From an uncultured Myxococcales bacterium (GTDB lineage: Bacteria; Myxococcota_A; UBA9042; DTJE01), in contig CAIZWN010000079.1 in NCBI GenBank assembly GCA_903936705.1, positions 1 through 64,000 of the forward strand: a DNA stretch of 64,000 bases, in the 5' to 3' direction. Under the pieces are notes generated by a model. The model searched no databases and had not been told where the DNA came from. It saw only the letters and a program-made list of their open reading frames with translations. The translations under genes and the position numbers were made by a program. Shown here in pieces: positions 7,164 through 17,113 of the stretch (position 1 is the first letter of the stretch; each line of letters starts with the position of its first letter).

Positions 7164-8117
7164 ATGCCTCCGTCCCTCGTCAGCCCCCCGGGTTCATCTT
7201 CGGTGCGTGCCGTTCTGAAACTGACCTATGCCTGCAATCAGCGATGCGCATTCTGCAGGGTCGATGATTTGCGCGGAACCGTTATCGATGTCCCCGCCGA
7301 GACCGTCGTGCGCAAGGCTTTGCGAGCCAAGGAGCTTGGCGTTGACACGCTGCTTTTCAGCGGCGGTGAACCTACCCTGCGTGCCGACCTACCCAGGCTG
7401 GCCAGGGCGATGACTGCCATCGGGCTTCGCTGGGGACTTATCACCAACGGCAGACGCCTTGCGCACCCGGCGTACCTGGACCTGCTGATGTCGCTTGGGC
7501 TCGTCTACGTACACACGTCGCTGCATGGCGCAACGTCAGCGACCCACGACAGCCTGGTCGAGTGCGCCGGCTTTGACGAGGTTGTCGAGGCTCTGCGCCT
7601 TCTTGCGGGCCGCGGGGTCGAACTGCACGTCAACAGCGTCGTGACACGCTCCAACATCGCCGAGATGAAAGCAATCGGAGACCTGCTTGCCGAATTTGCC
7701 CCTTTGACGCACAAGATCTGTCTGGCCGAGCCGCGCGGACGATTTCTGGAACTGGCCGATCGGCTGATGGTACCGCCCGAAACCGCTGGGCGTGCTGCCG
7801 AGGCTGCGGTACACGCCGCCAGGGAACACCATGCCATATCGGGCCTGGACGTAGTAATCGAAGGTTTCCCGTTGTGCCAGGTACCATCCATCGGCAGTGC
7901 CGTCTCGGGCCTGCGCCAACACAACATCATGTTCATGAGCGAAGGCTTTGAGGACGACTGGTACCCGACCGACTCCGGCCAGCGCACCTATCCGGCCACC
8001 TGCGACGGATGTGCCAAGCGCGAAGACTGCCCCGGTGTCTATGTCGGTTATGCCGAACGCTTCGGCGTCGTCGGATTACGCGCGTTCAGGAAAGGCAGAC
8101 AGGCTACGGCAGATTGA
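7164..8117 (+). CDS. Second radical SAM enzyme, HxsC-like
   Basis: A 317-residue radical SAM protein 33 bases downstream of the HxsB-type gene. C24-x3-C28-x2-C31 ([11 protein letters not shown]) is the SAM cluster motif; [11 protein letters not shown] is the GGEP motif; [11 protein letters not shown] follows the usual fold. The C-terminus carries four further Cys (C238 and C280-x2-C283-x5-C289, as in [14 protein letters not shown]), as in enzymes with one auxiliary cluster. Pairing of a larger SPASM enzyme with a smaller radical SAM protein ending in C-x2-C-x5-C matches the HxsB/HxsC arrangement, so HxsC-like is the best call, though overall identity to HxsC cannot be judged by eye. GGAGG lies upstream of the ATG. 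The end overlaps the convergent lipoprotein gene by 14 bases. Confidence 0.75.
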
Positions 8118-10404
8118 CGGGAAAGGAGTCCTGCGAGACGACTGCGCACTGCAGGTTGACGTCCGAATAGGCGAAGTCGTTGTTGTAGTCGAACGCCTTA
8201 CCCCCCGCCTCCAGGCGATAGGCCGACAGTTCCAGTTCGATGGTCTTTTCCCCAAAACGATGCGACGACATGTCATCGTCGAGGGTGGGCTGCGGATTCC
8301 CGATAACCGGACGCGCCTTTACGTCATCCGGCAACGTCGGCAACTCGACGCTGGTCCGGTCAGCCGGGACAAAAAATTCCCACAAGCAATGGGACCTGGG
8401 GCCTCCCAGCGTACCGGGCCCAGGACTGATCAGCCCATTGGCCGGCGCGGCAGTCAGGTAGTTCACGCGCAGCACGTAGAGGTGCGGTGTACTGGGGACC
8501 TCTACAGGATTCCACGCAACCTTTCCGGTGAACGGCTCCTGGGACACGGTATCAAGCGGCACCCCAAGAGGTACCGGCTTTGGCACCGTCAGATGCGGCG
8601 CCTCCTGCCATTTGTCAGGCGTCGAGAAATCAACCAGATCCCCGGTCTGAACCCCAGGCAGCACGGGAGTCGAAATCCCTGGCGGATCCCCTCCCTGGTA
8701 CGACCCGCGACCGGCCAGACCGACAGCAAGGCGATTCAATTTCAGCCCCAGTTGCCGAATCACCGGATCATCGTCCTCCGGGAACCTCACCTTGACCGGC
8801 CCATTGAACCCGACCTGGTTGTTGTAACTACCGTCAACCGTCACCCAAAGAAAACCCTCGCCGCCCGTGTCCAGAACGGGCATCACCAGCCTTTGCGGGA
8901 AGGGAGCGCCAGTCTGCCAGTCGTTCGGGATACCGCCCAGCGAGATGCTGACCGTGGAGCCTTCCAGCGGCCGCAAATCGATGTTCAACTTCAGATTCTG
9001 GGTCGTGACCTGCCCTCCCCGCACCTGCACGCGATCGACCGCCATTCCGCGGGGAAGGAATATCAAGCTGTACGGGTCTTTGATGGCGTCTATCACGCGA
9101 GAGGCAGTTCCCCCCAACGCGAACACCAGATACTGACCTTCGGGAACATTCCTCATCACATACGTCGGGGCACAGATGTCATCAACCCGGTCCGATAGAT
9201 TGCAGATGGCCATGTTATTCGGAATCGGCAGCGCCCCCTCGGGGTCGGGCGACTCGAGAACACTGCCCATGCTCATGGAAGAAAGAGGTACATCCCGGAT
9301 CGACAATTGGACCAAGGCCAGCGGGATCTTCTTGGTCGGGTCGAAAACGTCGGTAATCCCGCCAGGCGGAAAGCGGTCCAGGCCCCATTCGCCAGCAAAC
9401 CCCGTGACCGAACCCTCGATCGAACCGACGAGCGCCTCGTCACGTGGGAGAACCGGGTCAAGCCTGGACAGCAGCACTGCAACATTCGCGGCATCGACCC
9501 CCAGATAGGTCGTGAACCGGTAGCCATCGGCACCGACGGTAACGTCAACCGGACCGGCGACCTCGACCACGTCATGACCAGACACGTACTCGACGAACCC
9601 CTCCGGACCGGTCACCTTCGATGGCCACCAGCCCCAAAGCCCCTTGACGGCCACGGTAGCACCCTCGAAAGGCTTCGGCGTTCCGGCAGTCGCGTTCGAC
9701 AAGGCGTAGACGCGCAAGCGCCCCACTATTGGCCCTTCGCCCTTGTGCGGCGTTGTGTTCACTCCTGGAACGATGGGGTCTGCAAACGAAAGCGTGACCG
9801 AGTCGGAGGCCTTCAGAACCGGATTCTTGAGATCCACGTAGGAAGCGCTGACCGTAGCCTGCTGCCTGTCGATGGTACATGGCCGCACCGTGTAGGTACC
9901 GTCATCATGGGCGTCCACAGGTTCCAGCACGCCGTCCTGCCACGAAAAGGTCACCCCCAGCCTGGACAAAGGCTCGCCGTGGCTGCCGCGCAGGTGCGCC
10001 ACGACATCTGCGCACTGCCGACTGACGCCTTCCTGCGTTACAGCGACGAACACTGGGCTCGTCGTCAGTGACAGACGAGGTGGGGTACCAGGTTCGGCAT
10101 CAAGGCCATCGGGAATCCCGTCGCCATCGGTGTCGGCAAGAAGGGGGTCGGTTCCGAAGGCCTTTTCCTGCTGGTCGGTCAGACCGTCGCCGTCGCTGTC
10201 GGCGGTGGTGGCTCGGTTGCAGGAGGACGTCAGCGATACGACAAGAATCAGGAATAGGTAAAAAGGAAGAGGGACGCTGCACGAGGTGGAACGGAAATGG
10301 GACCGGGACGCAACCACGTTCACGTCTGCACTTACAAGTAACTCCAGGCCAACGACTGCCTGGTGGTTAGCGTCTTGAGAGGTCCGGGATACCGAGGCGC
10401 TCAT
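8104..10404 (-). CDS. Large lipoprotein with calcium-binding repeats and Ig/carboxypeptidase-regulatory-like domains
   Basis: A 766-residue exported protein of unknown function. The ATG at 10404 has GGAGAAG upstream, leaving an unusually long N-region of about 45 residues before the hydrophobic helix [16 protein letters not shown]; a GTG at 10323 is an alternative. After the probable lipid-attached Cys come two thrombospondin type 3-like Ca-binding repeats ([24 protein letters not shown]), then an Ig-like region ([18 protein letters not shown]), a carboxypeptidase-regulatory-like beta domain ([28 protein letters not shown]) and a long beta-rich C-terminal half. It shares orientation with the FadL-like gene 23 bases upstream and is likely cotranscribed with it. 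Likely faces the cell surface or periplasm. Confidence 0.75.
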
Positions 10405-10427: not shown

Positions 10428-11747
10428 TCAGAAGCGGATCTTCGCGGACAGCGAACTTCCAATGAACCAGCCCTCACTGCCTATCCAGGGGTACCCAGGG
10501 TTGTCGGGGTTGAATTTCGCTTTCTGATCACGATTCGCAAGAAGACCGCCGCATATCATGGCGAGATCCAGGTTGATTGCCGGCCCACCTACCGCCTCGG
10601 CGTCGAAGCCGAGGCCCAGGCTTCCCGTGAAGCGATCGCCGTCCAGCATGTTCGTATCGCCGGTCTGCGCCCCCACCGGTGACTGGACCCAAGAGAATCC
10701 GGCCCTGACGGCCAGCGCCTTGATGGGCTTCACCTCGCCACCCACCCGTACGGTCCAGGAATCGTGGAGATTGGCGTTGGGAACGCTCTGTTCCTGGATG
10801 ACCTTGCCTTCCTCGGTCGAAGAGTACAGGAGCACGGATGGGGCCGACATCCGAAACCTCCGGTACACGTTATATGTCACGTCACCGGTAGCGAGGAAGC
10901 GATTGGTCCGATAGGCCACTCCCAGCGAGACCTGGTGGGGTGTCGAGAAGTCCACCGCTACGACCTTCAGTCGGATGGGCGCCAACTGCCCCGACAGGAC
11001 GGCACTGACCGGTATGGACAGGTCCAGACGACTCTCGCCCCGCCACGCAAGACCCAGGGTAAGGCCAGGAATCGGCTCGAACAAAAGACCCGCGTTGGGC
11101 GACAGACGAGTCCCGACGTCCACCTCGGTCACGTTCTGCTTGGAACCGTCTGTGAAATCCACATTAACCCGACCACCTACGGTCGGTACGAACGAGAATC
11201 CCAGCCCGACCATCAGCCACTTCCACCTGCCGGCGATGGCCGCATTAAGCACGATCCGACGGTTCCGGTCCTCCAGGAACGTGAAATTTGGCTGCTCGAC
11301 AGAACGCTCGCGAACAGCGTAAAGCGTGGCGCCCGGAATAACCACCGAGACGCCCGCGAACAACACGCGCTCCAATCCTTTTCCCAGGGGCACGGGCGCG
11401 GCCAGCCCCACATCACCCATCACGTGAACCTTGGCATCACGAACTTCACTGCGGCGAACCAGCAGGCCCGAATCACCATCACGCGCAGAAGTGTTCGCCT
11501 TCAGAAAGTTCCTGTAGGTAAACACGCCGGCACCAAGCTCGAACCCCTTCAGCATCCCCAGTCCAGCAGGGTTGTACCAGGTGGCGTCGTACGAGGAAGC
11601 GGCAGCCGTCATCGCACCGCCCAGAGACATCCCGCGGGCGGTATATCCGAAAGTGTCCAAAGGGTTCGCATTTGCAGGACCAACCCCGACCAGGGCTGCC
11701 ACAGCCAGAAACACCGCCAAAGAAAAACGATGCACGTCCCGTCTCAC
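10428..11747 (-). CDS. FadL-like outer-membrane transport protein
   Basis: A 439-residue outer-membrane beta-barrel of the FadL/OmpP1 (Toluene_X) type, a class that passes hydrophobic compounds across the outer membrane. Evidence: a signal peptide ([20 protein letters not shown]), then the hallmark region of a FadL N-terminus with [12 protein letters not shown] and TWYNPAGL, alternating beta strands throughout, and a terminal aromatic strand ending KIRF. GTG 11747 or GTG 11735 give a sensible signal peptide; ATG 11831 would start only about ten bases from a possible -10 element. The gene is divergent from the Ig-like lipoprotein and upstream of the Ca-repeat lipoprotein. Confidence 0.82.
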
Positions 11748-11835
11748 CAGCGCGAGCGCGCGAATGATACCACAACGTCCCAGCGAATCAGGACTGGGAC
11801 CGGATCCTGCTGGAATCGTTACGGGCATCATGTTC

Positions 11836-11871: not shown

Positions 11872-14634
11872 ATGAACCGGCTAATGCCTCCGATTGCAGG
11901 CGCGTTGACTCTGCTTACTCTGGCCGTTTCCGGATGCCAGGGGGGATATCTCCCCAGTTCCTCGCTTACGATTGATACCGTGGTTGCCCCGCTTGAAGCC
12001 AGGGCCGGAGACCAGGTCAGCGTCCGCTGTGAGGTTTTCACGCAATCCGGATTGCCGTTTGAATGGGCAACCCGCGTCGATGTGGAGCCCCTTGATGGCA
12101 TCACCATTGACGGCGGAACAGCCACACCCACCGCTGTCGGGACCTACACGTTCACATGCCGATCGGAAGACGGGAACTGGAAGGACGATTCGCCGGCAGT
12201 TCTTACGGTTATCTCGGCTGATCCAGCCTCGACCGTGGCCACCGTCGATCCCGAAACCATCGCTGCCGGGGCTACCGCGACGACGACCTGCACCGTCTAC
12301 GATGCATTCGGGAACGTAATTCCCGAAGCGGTCGCTTCGGTTGATCAGACCCCAGGGCTGGATGTCAACGGCATGCTGGTTGGCTCGACCAAGCCGGGCG
12401 GATACAGCGTGGAATGCTCGGTGCAGGGATTCGAAGTGACCAAGACGGCCGCAAGGCTGACCGTGACCGCAGCCGACCCGGTGCGCCTGGAAATCACGGC
12501 CAACCCGGACAAGGCAAACTACGCAATCGGCGACACTACGCTGGTCGGGTGGAAAGTCTACGACGCGTACGACAACCTGATCGAAGGTCTTCCTGCCACC
12601 GTGACGCCGGCAACGAACCCGGGCATGGACGCACTGGGGGGCAACAAGTTCAGGTTCAACGGAGAGGGCCACTTCAACGTTGGCGTTGCCCTGGACGCGC
12701 CCTGGGAATCCATAAAGAATTCAAGGATTTTTGTCTGTGACACCAGTGCGCCGACCATCGAGGATCTGTTCCCGCCACGCGGGTATACGCAGACTGGCGA
12801 TCCGACGCTGGTGGTCCGTGGAACGTTAAAGGATGCCGCAGGATCAAAGACAACGTACGTTTCGGTTAACGGGGTGCAGGCCACAGTCAACGCCGACGGA
12901 ACCTTCGAGTTGCCGACCACCGGGAAGCACGGCCTGAACGCGCTGGTCATTGTCGCAAGGGACGAGTTCGACCACGAGATGTTCGTCACTCGCGGCTGGT
13001 ACTACTCGTCCAAGTTTCTGAAGGTCGATGACACGACCACGATGGACGACGTGATCCTGCCCGAATCGGTCCTGGCCAACCTGGGCCAGAAATTCCTGGA
13101 TGACGGGGTTCACGACCCGGCCGACCCCAACGACCTTGCGACACTGGTGGAAATGCTGCTTGGAAGCTTGATCCAGCCGCTGCTGGCCAACATCCCGCCC
13201 ATCCCCTTCCAGATTCCCAACGCCATCAACGTATCGCTTGCGGGATTCGGGCTGCAGGGCGACCTTGAGGTCGTTATCACGGTCAAGGACATTGTCCTGG
13301 GCAAACCATCCGTCAGGCTGAACCTTCTGGATGGCGGCATCTCTGCTGGCATCGGCTTCCAGCCGGTCTCGGTTGGCCTGGAACTCAGCTTCATAATCCA
13401 TGCCCGCGCCATCGGCTTTGGCCAGACGATTCCTCTGCTGGATCCCTCGACCACGTCGTCGGGGTCTTTGTCGGTGGGGACTTTGGACCTCACGCTGGCC
13501 CTGGACATCTCGAAGCCCCTGGGCGGCGAATCTTCTGTCGCCGGTCGCGACTTCGGACTGACGCTGACGGACATCAGTCTCAGCCCTATCGAGAGTCTGA
13601 AGATCAAGCTGGGCAAGGTCCCTAACACCATTATCGACCTGGGCGAAGTAGACCTGACATGGCTGGTCGCGGGACTGAACGATCTACTGTCCCAGTACGT
13701 GCTGAACCCGCTGGCCGACATGATCACGCAGCCGTTGATCGACCTGCTGGCACCACTGGTCATCAGCCTGATTGGCGACCCGATCAAGCAGGTTCTTGAC
13801 ATGCTGAACATCCGCCAGTCGATTCCGCTGCCGGACCTTCTGGGCACGGGAAACTCCGTGGATCTGCAACTGGGCCTGGACCTGTCGTCAGTCGCCTTCA
13901 CTACCGAGGCAGGACGGATCGGACTGGACCTGGGCTTCCTGACTACAAAGGCCGTCCCGCGCGAACCACCGCTGGGTACCATTCTTCGCGATGCCTGCGA
14001 CCAGACCGAGGAGAACCCGCCCCAGTTCGTCTTCCCCGCAACACCGTCGGTCCAGCTTGGGCTTTCTCACGACGCAATCAACGAACTGCTGTTCATGGTG
14101 TGGTGGGGCGGCGTGCTTCAGGGCCAGTTCGACGCCTCCTCCCTGATTGGGGGTGGTGGCGGGTCTGCCATTCCGGTCGAGAACGTGCTGATCACTCCGA
14201 CTTTATGGCTGCCGCCAATCTTCAACGACTGCGGTGAAGCCACGCAGCGCATCGAGATCGGCGATATGTTCGTGGAAATCCAGATGGACCTGCTGGGCAA
14301 CACCCAGTGGCTGGAGGCGTGGCTGCAAGTGTCCGTAGAAGTATCGATCATCACTGACGGAAACCAGGTAGGCATCAAGATCGGGAAGATCCAGGAACTG
14401 CAATATGAGCTTTACGACGTAGGCGGCGGCCTCACGGACCTTCTGGATATGTTGACCCCGATGATCCCCGACCTGCTGAATGGGATTTCCGGCCAGCAGT
14501 TCATGTTCCCGATACCGGCCATACCGCTGGACGGCCTTCTGCCTGGCATCCCCGCCGGGACGTCACTGCAACTGGGCAACCTGGATTCAGCCGTCGAGAC
14601 GGGCGTGATCCGAGTGGGCGGCGACCTGCTGTAG
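11872..14634 (+). CDS. Large lipoprotein with Ig-like repeats and a possible TULIP/BPI-like lipid-binding half
   Basis: A 920-residue lipoprotein. MNRLMPPIAGALTLLTLAVSGC has a classic lipobox (VSGC). Residues about 30-330 are three or four Ig-like domains (GDQVSVRCEVF, GATATTTCTVYDAFGN, GDTTLVGWKVYDAYDN). The C-terminal 550 residues are beta strands and amphipathic helices rich in Leu/Ile/Pro, with LNDLLSQYVLNPLADMI and a closing PIPAIPLDGLLPGIP followed by a strand ending VIRVGGDL. This resembles the tail of BPI-like (TULIP) lipid-binding proteins; the match is by pattern only and needs a structure search. The FadL-like porin is divergent from it, so an outer-membrane lipid-handling role is a reasonable guess. 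Confidence 0.72.
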   Translation: MNRLMPPIAGALTLLTLAVSGCQGGYLPSSSLTIDTVVAPLEARAGDQVSVRCEVFTQSGLPFEWATRVDVEPLDGITIDGGTATPTAVGTYTFTCRSEDGNWKDDSPAVLTVISADPASTVATVDPETIAAGATATTTCTVYDAFGNVIPEAVASVDQTPGLDVNGMLVGSTKPGGYSVECSVQGFEVTKTAARLTVTAADPVRLEITANPDKANYAIGDTTLVGWKVYDAYDNLIEGLPATVTPATNPGMDALGGNKFRFNGEGHFNVGVALDAPWESIKNSRIFVCDTSAPTIEDLFPPRGYTQTGDPTLVVRGTLKDAAGSKTTYVSVNGVQATVNADGTFELPTTGKHGLNALVIVARDEFDHEMFVTRGWYYSSKFLKVDDTTTMDDVILPESVLANLGQKFLDDGVHDPADPNDLATLVEMLLGSLIQPLLANIPPIPFQIPNAINVSLAGFGLQGDLEVVITVKDIVLGKPSVRLNLLDGGISAGIGFQPVSVGLELSFIIHARAIGFGQTIPLLDPSTTSSGSLSVGTLDLTLALDISKPLGGESSVAGRDFGLTLTDISLSPIESLKIKLGKVPNTIIDLGEVDLTWLVAGLNDLLSQYVLNPLADMITQPLIDLLAPLVISLIGDPIKQVLDMLNIRQSIPLPDLLGTGNSVDLQLGLDLSSVAFTTEAGRIGLDLGFLTTKAVPREPPLGTILRDACDQTEENPPQFVFPATPSVQLGLSHDAINELLFMVWWGGVLQGQFDASSLIGGGGGSAIPVENVLITPTLWLPPIFNDCGEATQRIEIGDMFVEIQMDLLGNTQWLEAWLQVSVEVSIITDGNQVGIKIGKIQELQYELYDVGGGLTDLLDMLTPMIPDLLNGISGQQFMFPIPAIPLDGLLPGIPAGTSLQLGNLDSAVETGVIRVGGDLL

Positions 14635-14644
14635 GCTGCCAGTT

Positions 14645-15172
14645 CTACCTCGATTCTGCAGCCAGAAACCCTGCACGCAGGACATTCAGTGCGCGCTTCT
14701 CGATGCGCAGGACGGTTGCGGGGCTGACACCTTGATCCCTGGCGACCTCCCTTACCGAGAGTCCTTCCTGATACCTTTGGCGCAGGACGCTCCTTTCAGG
14801 CTCGGGCAGGGAAAGCCGCCCGTCTGCCAGGAACCTGCGAAACCTGGCCAGCATTACGCGGGACTCGGGGGATTTCGATTCGTTGGATGATTTGGCCCGA
14901 GCCGAGCTGCCAAGCAAAACGTCGGAATCCTGAACCTCGCAGCCCCGCCGAGCCAACAACCTGACCTGGTCCAGACAGGCGCCCTTGGCACGGGCCGATC
15001 CATAGCACCCCAAGCCTACCCCACGACCTGTCTCGTACCTTGACGCAGCCTCCAACAACCCAATTGCAGCTTCCTGGAACATGTCTTCGCGATCCGCCGG
15101 ATTCCATACACGCGCACGGTAGTGGGACACTATGCGATGGACCATCGGAAGAAGGTTCAATACGGGGGTCAT
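14645..15172 (-). CDS. Small sigma-70 family RNA polymerase sigma factor
   Basis: A 175-residue sigma factor with regions 2 and 4 only. Region 2 begins VHRIVSHYRARV, and ADREDMFQEAAIGLLEAASRYE is the canonical region 2.1-2.2 core-binding helix pair. Region 4 is LPEPERSVLRQRYQEGLSVREVARDQGVSP, with a helix-turn-helix. The stretch between (QDSDVLLGSSARAKSSNESKSPES) is a flexible linker in place of region 3. GGAGG precedes the ATG. No anti-sigma factor gene is adjacent. It is divergent from the Cys-rich lipoprotein gene over a 345-base spacer, which suggests autoregulation or control of that neighbour (inference). It converges with the Ig-like lipoprotein, 10 bases from its end. Confidence 0.85.
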   Translation of the reverse strand: MTPVLNLLPMVHRIVSHYRARVWNPADREDMFQEAAIGLLEAASRYETGRGVGLGCYGSARAKGACLDQVRLLARRGCEVQDSDVLLGSSARAKSSNESKSPESRVMLARFRRFLADGRLSLPEPERSVLRQRYQEGLSVREVARDQGVSPATVLRIEKRALNVLRAGFLAAESR

Positions 15173-15517: not shown

Positions 15518-17113
15518 GTGCGCATTCACTCGAAGTTGGTCATGTCACTTGTCGTCCTGCCACTGCTGCTGGTTGTTACGGGCACCATGTCGGCCTGCGG
15601 TGGCGGCGATGCCATTGGAATCGAGCCCTCCGATATCATCACGGGTGACGGGATCCTCGATCTCGTGAATACCGATTCCCTGGTCGAGGACCTCGCTCCC
15701 ATCCCGGATGGAGCGGTGTGCCGGCCCGGTTCCACGAAGTGCATGGGCTCCAATTTCACGAAGTGCAAGCCCGACGGGTCTGACTGGGTGTTGACAGCCT
15801 GCAAGGACGCGAAAAGTTGCACGATCGACGGCTGTCAGAACGACGCAGCATGCACTCCCTACGAGGCGTCCTGCGACGCACAGGGCCGCGTCGTGGTTTG
15901 CCTGGCCGATGGTTCCGCCCTGGGCCAGCCGATTGCCTGCGCCGATGGCTATGCCTGCCACGCCGGCAAGTGCGTCGCACAGATCTGCACCCCCGGCCAG
16001 ACCGACTGCACCCAGACGGCTCTGCTGGTCTGCCAGGGCGAGCCTCCTGCCTGGGCCGAGACAGCGTGCGGCGAAGGCAAGGTCTGCTTCAAGGGCGCCT
16101 GCGTTGAATGTTTTACCGACGACCAGTGCGATGCCCCGAAGTCTTGCGTCGATGGTACTTGCGTCGTTGCACCACTAGAAGTGATTACTCGCGAACTGCC
16201 TGAGGGCGCCAAGGACGTTGCATATTCCGGCACTGTCGAGGCCGAGGGCGGCACTCCCCCCTACGCCTGGTCGATTTCGGCAGGAACCCTTCCCGATGGC
16301 ACTACCATCAACGCCGCGTCAGGCGCCATTTCAGGCAAGCCGACGAAGGGCGGCACATCGACCTTCACCGTGACGGTGACAGACAAGGATGGAACGAAGG
16401 CGTCGAAGGAGTTGGAAATCTTCATTCGTGCAACCTCCGACCTTGCGATTACGTCGAAGTCCCCGCTGCCCGGCGGCGAAGAGGGCACGCCCTACCAGTT
16501 CCAGTTCGCGGCGGTCGGAGGCACCACGCCTTACGGCTGGATGATTACTTCTGGCACGCTGCCGACCGGCCTGACGCTTGCCTCGAGCGGCCTGCTGTCC
16601 GGGACGCCGGAAACCCATGGTGATTTCGAGTTCTCGGTGCGGGTCGTGGATGTAGGCGATCCGATCGGCGCAGACACCAAGGTGTTCACCATCACATTGA
16701 AGATCGCGCCTCTTGAAATCATCGGAGACACGTCCATCAACCTGTTCCTGACGAAGGCCATAATTCTGCCGTTGATTACCGTGGTACAAGGGTTCCCGAT
16801 TCCCTACAACACCAAGCTCCAGGCCAAGGGCGGCGTAAAGCCTTACCACTGGGCCGAGCAGGAGATGCCTGGGTTCCTTGCCACTTTCATCCCGAAAGCC
16901 GGCATCCCGGCCGGTCTGACACTGGCTGATGACGGGACCCTTTCGGGTTCGGTGACGGACACCTCGCTGGTGTTCGAATTGAAGGTACCGTTCGTCAACT
17001 ACACGTTGACCGGCTTCTTCTTCATGGGACAAGTGACCGACACCCAGGAACCGCCGGCCAGTGCCAGCGCAATCTTCCTGATTCCGACCATCCCGGTGAA
17101 CCTGGGCGGTTAA
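15518..17113 (+). CDS. Cys-rich, putative-Ig (He_PIG) repeat lipoprotein
   Basis: A 531-residue exported lipoprotein. The GTG start begins a signal peptide ending TGTMSAC. Residues about 65-215 are a Cys-rich region of repeated short modules (CRPGSTKCMGSNFTKC, CTPGQTDCTQTALLVC, CFTDDQCDAPKSC), a type frequent in myxobacterial surface lipoproteins. Then come putative-Ig domains with the hallmark G-G-T-x-P-Y-x-W and LPxGLTL...GxLSGTP (GGTPPYAWSISAGTLPDG, GGTTPYGWMITSGTLPTG, GGVKPYHW...AGLTLADDGTLSGS). Cysteines are probably disulfide-bonded outside the cytoplasm. Function unknown; an adhesive or structural surface role is typical of the architecture. Confidence 0.8.
   Translation: MRIHSKLVMSLVVLPLLLVVTGTMSACGGGDAIGIEPSDIITGDGILDLVNTDSLVEDLAPIPDGAVCRPGSTKCMGSNFTKCKPDGSDWVLTACKDAKSCTIDGCQNDAACTPYEASCDAQGRVVVCLADGSALGQPIACADGYACHAGKCVAQICTPGQTDCTQTALLVCQGEPPAWAETACGEGKVCFKGACVECFTDDQCDAPKSCVDGTCVVAPLEVITRELPEGAKDVAYSGTVEAEGGTPPYAWSISAGTLPDGTTINAASGAISGKPTKGGTSTFTVTVTDKDGTKASKELEIFIRATSDLAITSKSPLPGGEEGTPYQFQFAAVGGTTPYGWMITSGTLPTGLTLASSGLLSGTPETHGDFEFSVRVVDVGDPIGADTKVFTITLKIAPLEIIGDTSINLFLTKAIILPLITVVQGFPIPYNTKLQAKGGVKPYHWAEQEMPGFLATFIPKAGIPAGLTLADDGTLSGSVTDTSLVFELKVPFVNYTLTGFFFMGQVTDTQEPPASASAIFLIPTIPVNLGG

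Follow-up and report, generated by a model that had tools for sequence, protein, structure and literature searches.

A lipoprotein gene from an uncultured Myxococcales bacterium, located in the 64,000-nucleotide stretch of contig analysed here (the window), appears to encode a bacterial homologue of the BPI/LBP/CETP family. In our preferred reading, to which we assign a probability of roughly three in four, the product is an exported lipoprotein, probably of the outer membrane, in which a stalk of four Ig-like domains holds a double TULIP homologous to BPI/LBP/CETP; it most likely binds or carries apolar molecules, and its partner in the bacterial family of the window (f1) is likely a FadL channel. 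Computation shows the lipoprotein signal, the Ig-like stalk, the BPI-type double barrel (as a predicted model), the LBP/BPI homology through paralogues and the wide distribution in Myxococcota. The gene is organized as follows.

11872-14634 (+): ORF of the 920-aa lipoprotein, with ATG start, signal peptide, four Ig-like domains and BPI-type double TULIP
11872-11937 (+): signal peptide and lipobox VSGC, with predicted acylated Cys22 and Gln (not Asp) at +2, read directly
11968-13008 (+): four tandem Ig-like domains, at about residues 12-93, 97-178, 182-268 and 274-358 of the mature chain
13003-13806 (+): TULIP N-terminal barrel with a long helix (aa 596-644), from the predicted model, Foldseek and VIA; the PF01273 match of a paralogue aligns to the helix region
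13807-14631 (+): TULIP C-terminal barrel with conserved Cys709/Cys787 and a terminal PIP...GGDL motif, from the model, VIA and the cysteine count

A sequence-only reading of this DNA had placed a lipoprotein at 11872-14634, and the ORF proved exact, including its lipobox cysteine at position 22. The lipobox reads VSGC followed by QGG, with cleavage before Cys22. We surveyed this site in 28 members, namely the window protein, 20 of the 22 loci from an alignment-based contig scan (L044 and L060 were excluded because contig ends cut both) and seven paralogues or family copies. A cysteine follows the hydrophobic signal in all 28 (20 by pattern, the other eight by eye). According to the E. coli sorting rule, the +2 residue decides whether a lipoprotein goes to the outer or the inner membrane, with Asp as the exception to outer-membrane sorting. 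Since +2 Asp occurs in just two of the 28 members (L040, and L111 from genome G010), most are predicted for the outer membrane under this rule. The window protein itself has the signal peptide, the lipobox Cys and a non-Asp +2 residue of an outer-membrane lipoprotein, and is probably anchored there as judged by the lipobox +2 rule.

The N-terminal half, which the earlier reading had called Ig-like, was confirmed as such. The Pfam Ig-like domain Glucodextran_B was matched in 18/18 aligned members, reaching 27.6 bits on the window piece against a cut-off of 27, and an AlphaFold2 model of this half (18 sequences) gave four all-beta domains with a pLDDT of 91.9, that is, tandem Ig-like beta-sandwiches. 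A Foldseek search with this model returned 387 PDB matches at E <= 0.001, with Ig-like repeat proteins among them (S-layer proteins, invasin and FdeC, for instance). The modelled stalk fold is thus clear yet uninformative on specific function.

For the C-terminal half (aa 378-920, 543 aa), the same reading had proposed a BPI-like, lipid-binding TULIP tube, and structure prediction with Foldseek bore this out: the predicted model is an elongated double-barrel tube that can be matched along its full length to BPI, CETP and LBP. The AlphaFold2 model (22 sequences) has a pLDDT of 76.5 and a pTM of 0.67, with low-confidence stretches at model residues 333-340 and 384-387. The top five PDB chains found by Foldseek were all BPI (1bp1, E 5.5e-18; a second BPI entry, 2.8e-17), CETP (2obd, 1.1e-15) or LBP (4m4d, 3.1e-15; a second chain, 1.3e-14), and clostridial P47/OrfX3 came next in rank at about 1e-6; viral structures gave no match with E below 0.001. 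VIA comparison gave Z scores of 17.6 for CETP, 17.1 and 16.8 for BPI and 15.9 for LBP, and lower values for other TULIPs (9.6 for P47, 8.8 for Der f 7 and 6.0 for YceB over 125 residues), where unrelated-looking rows start at about Z 4.8-5. The VIA match covers both barrels (model 19-543), with 419 residues aligned to CETP at an rmsd of 6.0 and 413 to BPI at 5.7; overall, superposition rmsd values were 5.6-8 A for a model of moderate confidence. The predicted model thus has the tubular curled-sheet barrels and long helix of solved TULIPs, and places two barrels in one chain as BPI, LBP and CETP do. We therefore describe the C-terminal half as a predicted two-barrel, BPI-type TULIP. The C-terminal strings picked out earlier, PIPAIPLDGLLPGIP and VIRVGGDL, are present, and the region around them is conserved in an alignment of 28 sequences whose identity falls as low as 27%.

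Could an unrelated beta-tube resemble BPI by chance? The window protein alone had no significant TULIP match in Pfam, NCBIfam or PDB sequences, reaching neither PF01273 nor PF02886, which is what such convergence would predict. The paralogues tell otherwise. PF01273 (LBP_BPI_CETP, N-terminal domain) gave matches at E <= 1 in 47 of the 52 related genomes and exceeded its curated cut-off in 17 of them, and one of 14 control genomes had a match, under the cut-off. In the window's own genome, the paralogue on contig C51 scored 30.2 bits against a cut-off of 28.8, and 26.2 bits, under the cut-off, when rescored as a whole translated ORF. PF02886 (C-terminal domain) exceeded its cut-off in none of the 52 genomes, with a best E of 0.0147 (G016). 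Two profiles were built, A1 from the window's group together with nearer relatives (28 sequences) and A3 from 19 paralogue-type proteins. A1 found only the TULIP Der f 7, a weak match topping at E 0.093, and A3 searched against all PDB sequences found LBP (1.9e-17) and BPI (1.2e-11), with nothing else below 0.5; in LBP, the C-terminal barrel also shows weak but collinear stretches. A3 in turn matched the window gene at 4.6e-56, and the A1-A3 profile-profile comparison gave a probability of 100 (E 1.2e-74). Moreover, the window protein could be aligned at E <= 1.3e-14 with each of 21 tested loci (L061-L081; 20 from PF01273 and one from PF02886, with best-match loci kept rather than every Pfam hit). 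From the PF01273, A3 and A1-A3 matches, LBP/BPI homology is well supported for the family, strongest in the N-terminal barrel and reaching the window protein via paralogues, and we regard chance resemblance as barely credible. Because the window protein does not pass the PF01273 cut-off, we term it a homologue of the BPI/LBP/CETP family rather than a member.

The relation to known TULIPs is graded. With LBP/BPI/CETP (PF01273 + PF02886), the window protein shares the two-barrel pseudo-dimer, matched over the whole length in the model, and an N-barrel sequence similarity that is significant through paralogues; unlike them, it is a strongly acidic bacterial lipoprotein on an Ig-like stalk, its family's conserved Cys pair sits in the C-terminal barrel, it stays under the Pfam cut-off, and none of the 52 genomes exceeds that of PF02886. 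The clostridial P47/OrfX proteins are bacterial two-barrel relatives that match far less well (Foldseek about 1e-6, Z 8-10); to our knowledge they have neither lipoprotein signal nor Ig stalk. YceB/DUF1439 (PDB 3L6I) is likewise a bacterial lipoprotein TULIP, but a single-barrel one. Two papers (PMC6791001; PMC5507252) give P47, OrfX2, YceB, DUF4403, DUF2140 and DUF2993 as known bacterial TULIPs. DUF4403 (PF14356), a bacterial pseudo-dimeric TULIP according to Levine 2019 (PMC6791001), resembles the window protein in being bacterial, two-barrelled and often a lipoprotein, and differs in its open frames of about 470 aa and its separate gene. Identity with DUF4403 was rejected, as PF14356 was not matched and the profile-profile probability was 0.2% (profile A4, eight sequences); A4 did not find BPI, which is weak evidence given its few sequences. 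The window's genome lacks a DUF4403 gene, which 15 of the 46 related genomes do carry. Among the 46 genomes searched, DUF4403 (L094-L105) coexists with the window family only in bacterial family f6. Among the papers listed by our literature search, which had subscription papers and preprints outside its range, none dealt with TULIPs or BPI-like proteins from Myxococcota. A few members have probably been annotated automatically in databases, given that the PF01273 cut-off is passed by some. As far as the accessible literature goes, bacterial TULIPs as such are already known, and what is new is the pairing of a BPI-type double TULIP with an Ig-like stalk.

The composition of the TULIP half bears on what it may bind. 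It is apolar on average (GRAVY +0.40) and strongly acidic, with a net charge of -42 and a pI of 4.05. Mean net charge is -48 in A1 (28 rows) and -15 in A3 (19 rows), and because the A3 values range up to +17, the marked acidity of the window's group is not shared throughout the family. Some Myxococcota prey on other bacteria, and by sequence LBP and BPI are the closest proteins of solved structure, so the protein might be imagined as a weapon that attaches to LPS on prey or competing bacteria and breaks up their outer membrane. The LPS binding of BPI depends on a cationic tip; BPI-style binding is therefore unlikely for so acidic a protein, which is moreover a lipoprotein and not freely secreted. 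We consider this reading very improbable, and less so for some paralogues of the less acidic A3 group. The pair Cys709/Cys787 is complete in 26/28 A1 rows and 19/19 A3 rows, and the remaining two A1 rows (G004 and G010, same genus) have lost both residues, a pattern consistent with a disulfide within the C-terminal barrel.

The genes surrounding the lipoprotein gene are as follows.

8104-10404 (-): large predicted surface protein with thrombospondin-type-3 repeat, flanking the FadL-TULIP pair
10428-11831 (-): FadL/TodX-type outer-membrane channel, divergent (PF03349, E 1.1e-15)
14645-15172 (-): small sigma-70-like gene (regions 2 and 4), directly downstream of and convergent with the TULIP gene
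15518-17113 (+): large predicted surface protein with three He_PIG Ig domains, on the other flank of the pair

The divergent neighbour, previously described as FadL-like, indeed belongs to the Toluene_X/FadL family; its real start is probably near 11735, because of its signal peptide and where homology begins. It matched the NCBIfam model AupA weakly (E 8.1e-10, far below the cut-off). Besides the window, a divergent FadL gene lies beside the TULIP gene in seven of nine readable f1 genomes (G001, G002, G005, G007, G010, G011 and G012) and is absent from this place in G006 and G009; the count leaves out G004 and G008, cut by contig ends, and G003, which has no close orthologue (best E 1.8e-24). 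Outside f1, no FadL was seen beside the relatives by tblastn over L047-L059 and Pfam on ten chosen neighbours, searches that a diverged FadL could escape. A FadL partnership as a general rule was therefore rejected: the link is real in the bacterial family of the window and does not hold for the protein family as such. The sigma-70-like gene is kept in most f1 loci, even in the FadL-less G009 (locus L014). The flanking surface-protein genes are in conserved order, with a D-Ala-D-Ala ligase gene beyond.

This distribution leaves room for a periplasm-facing role, in which the protein, anchored in the outer membrane, would reach inward on its stalk and exchange lipid with the inner membrane or with carriers, the FadL neighbour being incidental. 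Such a role departs from the preferred reading only in direction and partner, and we rate it a serious contender at somewhat below even odds. Ig-like repeats such as those of the stalk are common at the cell surface, as in the S-layer, invasin and FdeC matches, which speaks against an inward orientation, and the +2 rule is silent on which face of the outer membrane is occupied. In its favour, all 52 related genomes have the protein family but not all have the FadL neighbour, and in G006 the position just upstream of the TULIP gene, FadL's usual place, is taken by a glycerol-3-phosphate acyltransferase gene (PlsY-type; L110, 704-1285, +). In addition, Levine 2019 (PMC6791001) holds the linkers of DUF4403 and YceB too short to cross the periplasm, those of DUF4403 having 20-25 residues; four Ig-like domains make a far longer arm, so that a reach across the periplasm is conceivable here.

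The family is widespread and multi-copy in Myxococcota. Relatives of the C-terminal half were found at E <= 1e-3 in 52/52 related genomes, the window's own included, and in a phylum sample of 188 genomes (E <= 1e-5) A1 matched 97 and A3 103, with 36 in the window's class and 61 (A1) or 67 (A3) elsewhere in the phylum. The genome-contig scan gave no match with the single protein and 22 loci with the alignment, coming from Myxococcales, Myxococcota, Bradymonadales and Deltaproteobacteria MAGs. Plasmids gave no match to the family, and NCBIfam gave no named family for six tested members, barring one weak unrelated match. In a tree built from the last 290 residues of 47 sequences, the window protein falls in a 23-row clade with support 97/92; five of the 28 A1 rows group with A3, so the A1/A3 labels are not clean clades. 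Genomes hold several divergent copies, and that of the window has five. Besides the window gene, these are single copies on contigs C51 and C35 and two copies on C5. The C5 copies stand in tandem, and the same stretch (L108, 6719-15957) goes on to encode a third protein, which has Cys-rich Dicty_CTDC repeats; one paralogue of the pair, if not both, also has these repeats over the Pfam cut-off, and a gene adjoining L051 has many of them.

These copies raise the question of whether the protein is a structural scaffold, a surface adhesin or envelope spacer whose tube holds no lipid. The multiplicity of divergent copies, the surface-protein-like repeats of the C5 copies and the resemblance of the stalk to S-layer proteins, invasin and FdeC would suit such a role, as would the mean column identity of the barrel half, which at 41% (A1) hardly differs from the 39% of the stalk (A5). 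The order of the barrel elements is nevertheless preserved in alignments of distant paralogues, and lipid carriers have this same double-barrel form; we thus consider a scaffold unlikely.

In the mechanism that we prefer, the acylated Cys would fix the protein to the membrane and the four-domain stalk would keep the double barrel away from it. The two barrels would bind lipids or other long apolar molecules and carry them between the membrane and another site; the lipid cargo is inferred from the fold and the apolar composition, and lipid transfer by the TULIP half from the fold. In f1, cargo may pass to or from the divergent FadL channel, which would make the two proteins partners. A partial parallel is AupA/AupB of Marinobacter (PMC5989066), in which a FadL-type outer-membrane protein and a second envelope protein take up alkane, likewise an apolar substrate; unlike the lipoprotein described here, AupB is an inner-membrane protein.

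Overall, these results suggest that putative envelope lipid carriers of this family are widespread in Myxococcota, with multiple copies per genome, which bears on whether animals and bacteria share the BPI/LBP/CETP-type lipid carrier by descent. Levine 2019 (PMC6791001) and Wong & Levine 2017 leave common descent of bacterial and eukaryotic TULIPs open because sequence similarity is low, with a best link at an HHsearch probability of 63%. Relative to what could be compared of that literature, the present family is the clearest bacterial-animal TULIP sequence link, and as HMM searches tie it to LBP (1e-17) and BPI (1e-11), common descent becomes testable by trees. We tentatively suggest, as a possibility we hold to be doubtful, that eukaryotic BPI/LBP/CETP and the Myxococcota lipoproteins share a two-barrel ancestor and that the eukaryotic family was acquired from such bacteria. 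If true, the LPS binders of innate immunity would descend from a bacterial envelope lipid carrier on an Ig-like stalk.
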